Part shown: positions 36,540-41,424 of the stretch, piece by piece
Position numbering within the stretch: the stretch's first letter is position 1
Layout of the letters: each line of letters starts with the position of its first letter
NCBI GenBank assembly: GCA_012837585.1
Contig: DUQW01000088.1
Span: 1-41,425 of the forward strand
DNA length: 41,425 nt
Reading direction: 5' to 3'
DNA from: Acholeplasmataceae bacterium
Lineage (GTDB): Bacteria > Bacillota_I > Bacilli_A > Acholeplasmatales > Acholeplasmataceae
The notes under the pieces: generated by a model
Database searches by the model: none
What the model saw: the letters and a program-made list of their open reading frames with translations, nothing else
What the model was told of the DNA's origin: nothing
Translations under genes and position numbers: made by a program

Positions 36540-38237
36540 ATGAAAAACTCTTTACTTAAAACCGATGAGATCGGAGTTTTCGCTTTAGGAGGTTTAGGTG
36601 AAGTAGGTAAGAACTTATATGTTCTTGAAATTAGTAATCAAATTTTTCTGCTGGACTGCGGAATTATGTTTCCTGATGCTCACTTATTAGGAATTGATTA
36701 TGTTTTACCTGATTTTACCTACTTAGAAGAAAATAAGGAAAGAATTGTAGGATTATTCATCACTCATGGTCACGAAGATCATATTGGTGGTATTCCGTAT
36801 TTACTTAGAAAAGTTAATATCCCTAAAATTTACGCTTCTGGATTTGCAGTAAGTTTAATTAAAGCAAAATTAGGTGAATTTACGGATATTAAAATGCCTA
36901 AAATTGAAAACTATGAATCTCACTCTAAATACTATTTTAAAGATGTTGAAGTTAGTTTTGTTAGACTAAATCACTCAATACCTGATATGCATGGTATCGC
37001 CTTTAAGACACCACTTGGATATATTTTCCATACTGGTGATTTTAAAATTGATCTGACACCTGTAGGACCAGGAGCTGAATATCATAAATTAACTAAAATG
37101 GGCGAGGAAGGAATGTTACTTGTTTTATCTGATTCAACTAACGCCGAAAGGGATGAAACAATTCAATCAGAAAGAGCAATTGGCGAATCAATTAATGATC
37201 TGTTTTATAATATTAAAGGTAGAATTATTATTGCGACATTTGCATCTAATATCTACCGTATGCAACAAATTATTGACGCTTCAATTTTATCAAATAGACA
37301 AGTTGCAGTAATTGGACGTTCAATGGAAAATGCAATTGAAATTGGTCTACAATCGGGATATATTAAAGCGCCAAAAGATATCTTTGTAAAACCTGAAGAT
37401 ATTAACCGTATCCCACCTGAAAGATTAACTATCTTATCAACCGGTTCACAAGGTGAACCGCTAGCTGCATTAAGTAGAATTGCTGCTGGTTCACACCGCT
37501 TTATTAAGGCGATTCCTGGTGATACAGTAATATTTTCGTCATCACCAATTCCAGGTAATCAAGAGCCAATTAACCGAACAATAAATGCTTTATTTAGAAT
37601 TGGGGCTGATGTAATAACACATGGTCCACTTGCTGATACTCATACATCAGGACATGGTAATCAATTTGATTTAAAGCTATTATTATCTTTAACTAAACCT
37701 AAGTTTTTTATTCCAGTTCACGGAGAACATAGAATGCTTAAATTCCACCGTGATTTAGCTATCTCCGTTGGAGTTGATCCGCAAAATATTTTAATTATGG
37801 ATAATGGTGATGTTGCAGCTGTTTCAAAAGATAAAATTAGACTTGCTGGTAGAGTTCAAGCTGACGATGTTTACGTTGACGGGACAGGAATCGGAGATAT
37901 TTCAAATAATATCATTAGAGAAAGAAAGATGTTAAGTGATGATGGAATGTTTGCGGTAATTATTACTGTTGATAACCAGAATCGAAAAATTATTGGAGAT
38001 CCTACTATTATCTCTCGAGGCTTTATTTATATGAAGGGTAATGAAGCCTTAACTGATGCTTTAGCTAATGATACTAAAGAATTTGTTACTAATGTATTTA
38101 ATAATAAAAATTTAATATCTGAATCTGAATTTAAGACAAAATTATCTGATTATTTAACTGATAAAATCTATGATATTACTCAAAGAAAACCGATGATTAT
38201 TCCTGTTATTAGAAATTTTAATACAACTGATTTATAA
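36540..38237 (+). CDS. rnj: Ribonuclease J
   Basis: GGLGEVGKNLYVLE, LFITHGHEDHIGGIPYLL, FHTGDFKIDLTP, HTSGHGNQFDLKLLL, FIPVHGEHRML. Confidence 0.96.
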   Translation: MKNSLLKTDEIGVFALGGLGEVGKNLYVLEISNQIFLLDCGIMFPDAHLLGIDYVLPDFTYLEENKERIVGLFITHGHEDHIGGIPYLLRKVNIPKIYASGFAVSLIKAKLGEFTDIKMPKIENYESHSKYYFKDVEVSFVRLNHSIPDMHGIAFKTPLGYIFHTGDFKIDLTPVGPGAEYHKLTKMGEEGMLLVLSDSTNAERDETIQSERAIGESINDLFYNIKGRIIIATFASNIYRMQQIIDASILSNRQVAVIGRSMENAIEIGLQSGYIKAPKDIFVKPEDINRIPPERLTILSTGSQGEPLAALSRIAAGSHRFIKAIPGDTVIFSSSPIPGNQEPINRTINALFRIGADVITHGPLADTHTSGHGNQFDLKLLLSLTKPKFFIPVHGEHRMLKFHRDLAISVGVDPQNILIMDNGDVAAVSKDKIRLAGRVQADDVYVDGTGIGDISNNIIRERKMLSDDGMFAVIITVDNQNRKIIGDPTIISRGFIYMKGNEALTDALANDTKEFVTNVFNNKNLISESEFKTKLSDYLTDKIYDITQRKPMIIPVIRNFNTTDL

Positions 38238-38239
38238 AA

Positions 38240-38261
38240 AAACACCAGGCGGTGTTTTTTT
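38240..38261. terminator. Bidirectional terminator between rnj and cobO-like gene
   Basis: AACACC-AGGC-GGTGTT flanked by an A-run and a T-run. Confidence 0.88.
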
Positions 38262-38275
38262 GTTTATATATCTAA

Positions 38276-38791
38276 TTAAAAATCTATTCCTCTTCGTGCT
38301 AATACACCTTCGTGGTAATAATGTTTTAACTCGCGCATTTCTGTAACTAGATCCGCTCTTTGTTTTACAAAGTTAGTAGCATATCTACCAGTAATAATTA
38401 ATTCAACATGTTCAGGTTTAGCATCAATTAATGTATGAAACTCCTCTTCTGTGATTAACTCAGTGATAAAACATAAATTCAACTCATCTAAAATAACTAC
38501 ATCATATTCACCTGATTTTAAAACTTTAAGTGAATACTCATATCCTTCTTTGGCTTTCTCAATATCAGTATATTTAGGATCGTTACCGACAAATGTTGGT
38601 GCACCAAACATTTTAATTTCTAAATTATCTAATTTTTCTAAAATTTCAAAAGCGGAATCTTTAATTCCTTTCATAAATTGACCAAGAAATACTTTTTTGC
38701 CAGCCCCTAATGCCCTAATTGCCAATCCGAAGCAAGCTGTAGTTTTTCCTTTTCCGTTACCGGTATAAACATGAATATAACCTTTGTTCAT
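38276..38791 (-). CDS. cobO: Cob(I)alamin/corrinoid adenosyltransferase (CobO/BtuR/CobA type)
   Basis: GYIHVYTGNGKGKTTACFGLAIRALGAGKKVFLGQFMKG...VVILDELNLC...IITGRYA...EMRELKHYYHEGVLARRGIDF. Confidence 0.93.
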   Translation of the reverse strand: MNKGYIHVYTGNGKGKTTACFGLAIRALGAGKKVFLGQFMKGIKDSAFEILEKLDNLEIKMFGAPTFVGNDPKYTDIEKAKEGYEYSLKVLKSGEYDVVILDELNLCFITELITEEEFHTLIDAKPEHVELIITGRYATNFVKQRADLVTEMRELKHYYHEGVLARRGIDF

Positions 38792-39321
38792 AATGAGTCA
38801 CCACTTTCATTTATAGTTTTTTCTTCTAACTGAGAATCTAATACTCTCTTTAATGGTTTATATAACCATAGTACTGATAAGAAGCTTGATGCTGCAATTA
38901 AAATTTCAAATGGAATATCTTGGATAAAATATGTCCAAAATGGTATTTGCAGCATAAATACTCCTGGTATAAAAAATATCCAACAATATATTAAAGAATA
39001 TAAAATACTTAAAAATGCCAATCCCAATGAATAATTTACTTTCTTAAATATAGTTTTTAAAGTAATCAGAATGACTAAATAACCTGCATACATAAATGGT
39101 ACTACTATTAAATTAAATGATCCCATCAGTAAGTTATCCAAAATAACATGGACTGTAATCATTAAAACTGATTCAATAAAATTAAATGTCTTACAATATA
39201 AAATTATTAATAAAAATGTCAGTTGTACGTTAGGAATAAAACTTAAAATTTGTTCTTGAACAAATAATATAGCTGTAAGAATGGATATGATTACTAATCT
39301 TTTAATCGTCATCTTTTTCAT
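38788..39321 (-). CDS. ECF transporter S component-like membrane protein
   Basis: Polytopic, with RLVIISILTAILFVQEQILSFIPNVQLTFLLIILYCKTFNFIESVLMITVHVILDNLLMG, S-component style. Overlaps cobO (ATGA). Confidence 0.75.
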   Translation of the reverse strand: MKKMTIKRLVIISILTAILFVQEQILSFIPNVQLTFLLIILYCKTFNFIESVLMITVHVILDNLLMGSFNLIVVPFMYAGYLVILITLKTIFKKVNYSLGLAFLSILYSLIYCWIFFIPGVFMLQIPFWTYFIQDIPFEILIAASSFLSVLWLYKPLKRVLDSQLEEKTINESGDSL

Positions 39322-39322
39322 A

Positions 39323-39727
39323 TTATGTCTCCACCCTTGTTAGAATAAATGTTACTTTTAACTTGTTTTCTAATTTGATTTGGCTAACTCCAACCGTAGA
39401 AAATTCATCGTTTACTAATATTTTTATAAATAATTCGTTTTTATTAGGTGCATGAAGTGAATCAATCTTTATAATATATACTCCAAATACACTATTTTCA
39501 TATTCTATATCGTAGTTATCATCAAGTATCTTAAAAAGTGTATCTCCAGCTTTGTAGTTATGATATTCTGTGCTTAAAACATTATTTTCAAGATCAATAA
39601 GTTCAATCGTAATGGTTCCGTTATCTTTTGCCTCTTCCCTCTTGGCAAGCATAACAAAACCAGTTATGATTAACCCTAGTACAATAATTGAATATATGAT
39701 CTTTAAAATAAGTTTTTTTCTAAGCAT
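39323..39727 (-). CDS. Membrane-anchored DUF4430/transcobalamin C-terminal-like domain protein
   Basis: N-terminal TM helix then TITIELIDLENNVLSTEYHNYKAGDTLFKILDDNYDIEY...YIIKIDSL...LFIKILVNDEFSTVGVSQIKLENKLKVTFIL, compatible with a DUF4430 fold. Confidence 0.6.
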   Translation of the reverse strand: MLRKKLILKIIYSIIVLGLIITGFVMLAKREEAKDNGTITIELIDLENNVLSTEYHNYKAGDTLFKILDDNYDIEYENSVFGVYIIKIDSLHAPNKNELFIKILVNDEFSTVGVSQIKLENKLKVTFILTRVET

Positions 39728-39732
39728 AATAA

Positions 39733-41424
39733 TTAATAATATAAATTAACTGTTTTATTTACTCGTAAATGAACTAAGTATAACGCTAATGCAGCAAAGG
39801 CTTGAGGAGTTGCAAATGGTATGTCAATTTCTGTACTATCTAAATTAGTTTTAAATCCCTTAGCAGTTGCATCATAAAATTTTATTAAACCTTGTGTAAG
39901 GGTAGTAGATTCATCTAAATTTAATGTTTTACCATTTGATGTATAAGCAATTAAAGCCATTGCTGTTGATGACGAACTTGCTTTACCATCCCACCCTAAA
40001 ATACCGTCTTTTGTTTTGTTAGTTGTAATAACATTATATAAATTTGTTTTATCATATTCACGATTAGTGGATGTAGCAAGAATAAATGCCGCAGTATCTG
40101 AATCAAACCATTCATTAGTATGAACTGTAGGTAAATCGGCTAAAATTGTATTAAGTAATGCTTGATTATTGTTAAAATTAGTAATTAAAGCTAGTGCCAT
40201 TGGATATGAATAAAATGATGCTACTGATGCTAAGTTTTCAGTGTATGTAATAATTGAACTTGGCACCTCTAAGCCATAAGCTTTAGCAAGTAGCATTAAT
40301 TTAAATGCATCTCCTTCACTAGAAATTGTCGCAGTATTTAAATACTCAACTACTGTTTGTTTTGGAACAACTTGAGTTAAATCATAATCATATCCATTTT
40401 CATTTAAAAGAGTAATTGCCGCTATTGCGTTATAATCAAATAATACAACACCATTTTCAACACGAATAAAACTTGCTTTGTGTGTATCATATACACTTGA
40501 TATAATATTTTCAATTTGAGCTATTTCAGGATTAACTATATTTTTTTCGCGAAATCTAACATGTGAAAAATCTAGTTCAGACTCCATTACAGCTCCGCCT
40601 ACTTTAGCAGTAAATTTAAAACTGCCTTTAAATTTATAAGTTGTTGTAATTGTATGAGTTGTATTTTCAATAGTAACTAGCACTTCTAATTCTGATTCTA
40701 AAGTACCAATAACAACATCAAATTCTTCTAGTTCTAATTCAACTAATATTTCTTTTTTCGCTGCTTCATCATTTGTCATGTGAAGTTTCATTTCAACTTC
40801 AGCATCACCAATTTTAGTTTCAAGTTCTAAGACAAGTTTTCCTTTTTCATTTTTAATTTTTAATTTGAACTCTAATTTTTGACCTACTTTGGGATCAACA
40901 ATATATTGAAACTCTCTTTCACCTTTTTGAAGTTTAGATGAAACTTCTACTTTAATGTCATTAGCTTCATGGATAACTGTTAATTCTTTTTCACCATCTA
41001 CTGGGTCAATTTCAACTTGACCGTCAATTAATAATTCTTTAACAGTTTTACCAACAGTAATTACTAATAATCCTTTAAATTCAGTTTCAACTTCATGTTC
41101 AGTTACGTTATAATGCATTACATAATTAACATCAGCACCTAATAAATCTTTAGAATCATATGTAGCCATTTTTTCGTAACCTTCACGGTTAGAATCAGAA
41201 TGTTTAATTTCAACATTTTGCAAAAATGTTTCTAACATTAATAATTGTTGATCAATTACTCCTACTAATGAATCAGCTAAATTTACTTCAATGGCTTGCT
41301 GATTAATTTGAGGTCCAGTACTATTGGCTAATGTAACTTGCGATGCATTTGAGTTTAATGTTGCTGCGCCTTGAGACATATTAGCTGCTGACACAGCTTG
41401 AACCATATATGCGTCTTCATCTTT
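39733..41424 (-). CDS. Surface/secreted protein: beta-rich N-terminal region and C-terminal alpha/alpha-toroid (prenyltransferase-like/intrinsic-factor-like) repeats; N-terminus beyond right edge
   Basis: Toroid-like repeats: WFDSDTAAFILATS, GILGWDGKASSSSTAMALIAYTSNG, PFATPQAFAALALYLVHLRVNKTVNLYY. The frame stays open to the window edge upstream of the ORF-track Met (KDEDAY-M). Confidence 0.65.
   Translation of the reverse strand, partial: KDEDAYMVQAVSAANMSQGAATLNSNASQVTLANSTGPQINQQAIEVNLADSLVGVIDQQLLMLETFLQNVEIKHSDSNREGYEKMATYDSKDLLGADVNYVMHYNVTEHEVETEFKGLLVITVGKTVKELLIDGQVEIDPVDGEKELTVIHEANDIKVEVSSKLQKGEREFQYIVDPKVGQKLEFKLKIKNEKGKLVLELETKIGDAEVEMKLHMTNDEAAKKEILVELELEEFDVVIGTLESELEVLVTIENTTHTITTTYKFKGSFKFTAKVGGAVMESELDFSHVRFREKNIVNPEIAQIENIISSVYDTHKASFIRVENGVVLFDYNAIAAITLLNENGYDYDLTQVVPKQTVVEYLNTATISSEGDAFKLMLLAKAYGLEVPSSIITYTENLASVASFYSYPMALALITNFNNNQALLNTILADLPTVHTNEWFDSDTAAFILATSTNREYDKTNLYNVITTNKTKDGILGWDGKASSSSTAMALIAYTSNGKTLNLDESTTLTQGLIKFYDATAKGFKTNLDSTEIDIPFATPQAFAALALYLVHLRVNKTVNLYY

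Follow-up and report, generated by a model that had tools for sequence, protein, structure and literature searches.

Why does the gene for a corrinoid adenosyltransferase lie in one operon with a transporter subunit and two predicted surface proteins, whose folds recall the vitamin B12 carriers of animals, in a small bacterium without a cell wall, a member of the Acholeplasma family? We consider it very probable that the operon encodes a system for corrinoid capture, uptake and activation, as a preliminary description of the locus had proposed. This reading is supported by cobalamin riboswitches in relatives, the match of the S component to CbrT, the co-occurrence with B12 enzymes, the neighbouring glutamate mutase operon, the predicted folds, the conserved linkage of the genes and natural fusions of DUF4430 to the S component.

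The host genome (G000) comprises 1.05 Mb in 99 contigs, and the window, that is, the whole stretch of 41,425 nucleotides that was analysed, is one entire contig of it (G000:C47). Four packed minus-strand open reading frames occupy the end of this contig, encoding in transcription order the toroid protein, the DUF4430 protein, the S component and CobO. All four were confirmed, as were the gaps of 5 and 1 nt and the 4-nt overlap given in the preliminary description. Since the window is a complete contig, the toroid gene is truncated at its 5' end. The features are as follows:

39733-41424, minus strand: toroid open reading frame, 563 aa, 5' end open at the contig end
40528..41424, minus strand: N-terminal part of this frame, about 299 residues, homologous to a lipoprotein linked to sigma/anti-sigma genes
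39733..40527, minus strand: alpha/alpha-toroid domain, residues 300-563, of a predicted corrinoid-capture lipoprotein (59% identity to congener G012; AlphaFold2)
39323..39727, minus strand: membrane-anchored DUF4430 protein, transcobalamin-like beta-grasp, SLBB (Pfam PF14478, hydropathy)
38788..39321, minus strand: ECF S component, CbrT-like, predicted corrinoid-specific (profile match to CbrT; riboswitch-linked orthologues)
38276..38791, minus strand: corrinoid adenosyltransferase of the CobO/BtuR type (Pfam PF02572; P-loop GNGKGKTTA)
38236..38255, no strand assigned: terminator-like hairpin ACACC-GCCT-GGTGT followed by a T run, read from the sequence

The hairpin separates cobO from a convergent RNase J gene.

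Predicted products of the operon

Two of the four proteins could be assigned by family profiles. The DUF4430 protein matches PF14478 above the cut-off (E 1.6e-12) and carries a single N-terminal hydrophobic segment at residues ~2-30 according to its hydropathy, in agreement with the membrane-anchored DUF4430-like protein described before. CobO matches CobA_CobO_BtuR (PF02572) with an E-value of 6.7e-56 and 189.6 bits against a cut-off of 25.7, and together with the GNGKGKTTA P-loop this confirms the CobO-type adenosyltransferase family; its scores against the two NCBIfam equivalogs are just below both cut-offs (157.6 vs 167.75 and 179.2 vs 185 bits). The S component and the toroid protein matched no family in Pfam or NCBIfam and were assigned by profile comparison (CbrT) and by fold (AlphaFold2/Foldseek), respectively. 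In the whole PDB the S-component profile (A1) had one match, 6fnp_A, the B12 S component CbrT of Lactobacillus delbrueckii (E 1.4e-4), which places the protein with the corrinoid family and not with another vitamin. CbrT has been shown to bind and transport both cobalamin and cobinamide (PMC5997447). A shared EcfA1-EcfA2-EcfT module is encoded on contig C9 of the window's genome.

The toroid domain of the window was modelled as an alpha/alpha toroid by AlphaFold2 with a pLDDT of 96.5, and Foldseek returned rat transcobalamin as its top PDB match, as the earlier fold assignment would predict. The TM scores against intrinsic factor were 0.54-0.58; terpene cyclases and complement C3d score about equally, and none of these matches had an E-value below 0.001. 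The DUF4430-toroid lipoprotein of Peloplasma aerotolerans, a relative from a sister genus (pLDDT 95.4), finds the beta domain of human transcobalamin first (5no0/5np4, free and cobalamin-bound), which bears out the suggested likeness of DUF4430 to this domain. Comparison of the toroid profile with transcobalamin by hhalign was not significant, and homology of the two is therefore not claimed from sequence; against PDB sequences, the profiles of the toroid and of DUF4430 yielded chance matches only. The comparison with transcobalamin drawn in the preliminary description thus holds for the folds of the toroid and of the beta domain, but not for the toroid sequence profile. Moreover, toroid and beta domain are encoded by separate genes in the window and its congeners, in place of the single polypeptide of transcobalamin/intrinsic-factor-like binders.

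The description of the toroid gene stands for the toroid domain and has to be revised for the remainder of the frame, which is cut by the contig end and whose first ~290 residues belong to a different lipoprotein family. Residues 1-286 are 35% identical to a lipoprotein of the congener G013 (L147:6299-7285), whose gene adjoins a sigma-factor gene and a related protein. This lipoprotein family, which accompanies genes for sigma factors and related proteins, was observed at L147:6299-8958, at G000:C75:20208-20756 and, as a domain fused to the toroid, in the window at 40528-41424. The copy on contig C75 is decayed, with three stops, and occupies the expected site beside a thioredoxin-like gene; the foreign region is absent from the toroid proteins of the congeners G012 and G013. 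The match to the G013 lipoprotein and the decayed copy at the expected site indicate that the window shows an in-frame fusion, absent from both congeners whose toroid N-terminus can be read; this fusion may be real or may be an assembly chimaera.

It is improbable, although it deserves to be taken seriously, that the 563-aa frame is such a chimaera or a broken fusion and that the operon may here lack a working capture protein, unlike its relatives. The assembly is MAG-like with 99 contigs, the contig terminates within the frame, and the N-terminal part derives from another family, of which the decayed copy lies at its own site. Against this, the junction is crossed by an open reading frame, and the longest exact match between the toroid region of the window and the other copy is 17 bases, a short stretch for a misjoin driven by repeats. 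The toroid domain itself is intact, residues 300-563 being 59% identical to the toroid lipoprotein of G012, a protein of 293 aa with a VSGC lipobox.

Riboswitches and B12-dependent enzymes as evidence for the substrate

The cobalamin riboswitch expected upstream of a corrinoid operon is found in relatives, but not in the window's genome. RF00174 lies directly upstream in all 24 toroid-DUF4430-S loci of sister genera. In a wider survey of S components 47 of 50 genomes contained a cobalamin riboswitch, which adjoined the operon in 46 of the 47 cases that could be placed; the two sets share some genomes, so their counts are not additive. A script located 44 of the 47 riboswitches no more than about 135 nt from the first gene; those of L092 and L103 overlap the called start. 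Within the window's own genus, RF00174 was found in G013, where it scores 88 bits and separates citG from the toroid gene, hence cobalamin riboswitch control occurs inside this genus. The Rfam search of the window gave no match, nor did RF00174 match anywhere in the window's whole genome, where assembly gaps adjoin the operon; in G012 there is no room for a riboswitch between citG and the toroid gene. In these two genomes the riboswitch therefore seems to be lost or unassembled.

The genomic neighbourhood points to the enzyme that is probably supplied. The window's genome contains one PF02310 protein, the glutamate mutase subunit S, whose gene is followed by GlmL and GlmE. Contig C63 ends with mutS, the genes for GlmL and GlmE and the first part of the methylaspartate ammonia-lyase gene, and contig C99 carries the remainder of that lyase gene followed by citD, citE, citF and citC; we infer the join C63-C99-window from the congeners. 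G013 has mutS-glmL-glmE-mal-citD-citE-citF-citC-citG-riboswitch-toroid as one uninterrupted run, and G012 has toroid-DUF4430-S-cobO directly behind citG. Taken together, these gene runs indicate that the cassette ends an adenosylcobalamin-dependent glutamate fermentation operon. In this genus the glutamate mutase operon upstream of the cassette encodes the methylaspartate pathway of glutamate fermentation along with citrate/citramalate-lyase genes, and the glutamate mutase operon genes of the congener score above the NCBIfam equivalog cut-offs.

An association with B12 enzymes is also seen across the family. Among 88 family genomes, PF02310 B12-binding proteins above the cut-off occur in 5 of 15 genera, the same five that have a toroid or a high-scoring S component, and toroid-type genes are restricted to genomes with B12-binding enzymes (2x2 table 31/0/3/54; Fisher p ~1e-20, a value that ignores relatedness). 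Lower-scoring S components in three further genera (g2, g4, g5) occur without PF02310 proteins above the cut-off, and may serve B12 enzymes that lack a PF02310 domain. Distant S-component members were also seen in Acholeplasma relatives without PF02310 proteins above the cut-off (L091, G003, G005, G006, G011, G015).

Cobalamin riboswitches control cobalt transporters too, and S components vary widely in substrate. The cassette might accordingly import a non-corrinoid, such as cobalt or another tetrapyrrole, under corrinoid-responsive control, but we regard this as highly improbable: the S-component profile matches CbrT and none of the other solved vitamin S components in the PDB, DUF4430 is the B12-binding domain in transcobalamin, and the toroid-type cassette tracks B12-using enzymes and adjoins the adenosyltransferase and the glutamate mutase operon. 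At L006-L009 and L021 the riboswitch and toroid operon are immediately preceded by a gene that looks by eye like one for a cyclodeaminase, possibly connected with histidine or folate metabolism. Folate as a substrate, considered on account of this gene upstream of several sister operons, was set aside in favour of corrinoids, which the cobalamin riboswitches and the CbrT match indicate.

Conservation of the cassette and proposed mechanism

The congener G012 (Acholeplasmataceae bacterium AS06rmzACSIP_177) carries the same four genes (loci L003/L033), so their order is not a matter of chance. Sister genera of the same family contain 24 loci in which a toroid lipoprotein, a membrane-anchored DUF4430 protein and the S component follow one another in conserved order. 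Their lipoprotein has its toroid at the C-terminus and, with the exception of L015 and L020, a DUF4430-like domain at the N-terminus. When GTDB genomes were searched with the alignment of S components, 79 loci were retrieved, mostly from Acholeplasmatales, Izemoplasmatales and related MAGs. The DUF4430 gene lies directly 5' of the S gene in 73 of them and is fused to it in 2 (together 75/79), and a toroid is present in 51. The predicted conservation of the linkage is thus confirmed for DUF4430, the S component and largely the toroid; cobO, in contrast, was above the cut-off in 2 of 88 family genomes, in both cases within this operon, and its linkage is limited to the window's genus.

In the two fused loci (L054:5398-6504 and L096:5365-6492) a membrane-anchored DUF4430 domain and the S component form one polypeptide. 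These fusions, along with the near-zero spacing of the separate genes, suggest a direct action of DUF4430 on the S component. Both fusions stem from Acholeplasmatales MAGs of ruminant gut samples. The toroid-free cassettes suggest that DUF4430 and the S component form the minimal unit, with the toroid as an added capture part. Paracholeplasma vituli (L091) has a DUF4430-S pair with a cobalamin riboswitch. At L104, L109 and L111 a DUF4430 lipoprotein and an S component without toroid, again with a cobalamin riboswitch, lie near genes that look by eye like those for a copper ATPase and CsoR.

The existence of such riboswitch-linked pairs, the 28 of 79 loci in which no toroid was detected and the foreign N-terminal region, related to proteins beside sigma-factor genes, would also be consistent with a B12 system made of DUF4430, S component and CobO, in which the toroid lipoprotein has another surface role, for instance in adhesion or stress sensing. 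We judge this unlikely, since the toroid gene comes first after the riboswitch in sister genera, where the toroid is also fused to a DUF4430 domain, and since the congeners carry a plain toroid lipoprotein without the foreign part. Counting against a corrinoid-capturing toroid in this particular genome, the toroid of the window is not joined to a DUF4430 domain, as it is in relatives, and has the foreign N-terminus instead.

For the corrinoid system that we favour, the following course of events can be proposed. The lipid-anchored alpha/alpha toroid and the membrane-anchored DUF4430 beta domain would together grip a corrinoid on the outer side of the single membrane, in the manner of the alpha and beta domains of intrinsic factor. 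The bound corrinoid would be passed to the CbrT-like S component, which presumably works with the shared EcfA1-EcfA2-EcfT module encoded on the other contig. In the cytoplasm, CobO is predicted to adenosylate the imported corrinoid, and the product would serve the adenosylcobalamin-dependent glutamate mutase. A more specific version, for which we see even chances, is a split intrinsic-factor-like receptor, whose two chains would clamp the corrinoid atop the S component and load it directly into the ECF transporter. If true, bacteria would possess a B12 receptor that consists of the same domains as the animal carriers, and this two-chain clamp may show how the ancestors of the animal proteins worked.

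A better knowledge of this operon is of interest, since it unites both building blocks of animal B12 carriers with a predicted B12 transporter subunit and a B12-activating enzyme, and since relatives keep the genes under a B12-sensing RNA switch, which makes a bacterial counterpart of the animal carriers directly testable. For the operon family, the riboswitch, the relationship to CbrT and the co-occurrence with B12 enzymes provide independent evidence on the substrate. The proteins are small and well-folding, and some come from named strains, so that binding and hand-off to the ECF transporter are measurable. The operon suggests how reduced relatives of Acholeplasma feed an adenosylcobalamin-dependent fermentation, and points to a likely role for the DUF4430 proteins that adjoin B12 S components in lactobacilli.

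Comparison with known corrinoid systems

Among the papers that we searched, none dealt with DUF4430 in ECF transport or with B12 uptake in this lineage. The concept itself was published in 2007: Burroughs et al. reported bacterial proteins in which a toroid stands to either side of an SLBB (DUF4430) domain, noted a second SLBB protein in the operon and linkage to CbiO/CbiQ, predicted that such proteins scavenge B12 and suggested bacteria of this kind as the source of the B12 binders of animals (PMC1796856). What is new here is the toroid on a separate chain, the CobO-type enzyme and the position of the genes after a glutamate mutase operon in a member of the Acholeplasma family. With the transcobalamin-like SLBB clade, to which human intrinsic factor, transcobalamin and haptocorrin belong, the system shares the combination of toroid and DUF4430/SLBB, the surface location, the second SLBB protein, the linkage to transport of the CbiQ/CbiO type and the predicted scavenging of B12. 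It differs in that toroid and beta domain are separate proteins in the window, whereas sister genera have the order beta then toroid, and in that the partner is a CbrT-like S component with a shared ECF module, cobO is part of the operon and the lineage is that of the Acholeplasma family.

The closest parallel in transport is the L. delbrueckii cluster nrdJ-cbrS-cbrT-pduO, which encodes the B12 transporter ECF-CbrT (eLife 2018, PMC5997447). On a plasmid of Lactobacillus intestinalis (L157:1300-4995) we found nrdJ, DUF4430, an S component with 60% identity to CbrT and a PduO-type adenosyltransferase in a row, a layout equal to that of the window with an unrelated adenosyltransferase. Judged by this gene order, cbrS of L. 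delbrueckii is probably the DUF4430 gene. Both clusters place DUF4430, an S component related to CbrT and an adenosyltransferase behind a B12-consuming enzyme, but the window has in addition a toroid, its adenosyltransferase is of the CobO type (PF02572) and not of the PduO type (PF01923), and the consumer is glutamate mutase instead of ribonucleotide reductase. As in BtuCDF of E. coli with its BtuF protein, an external corrinoid-binding protein is predicted to feed an ATP-driven importer, whereas the folds and the transporter class of the two systems are unrelated.
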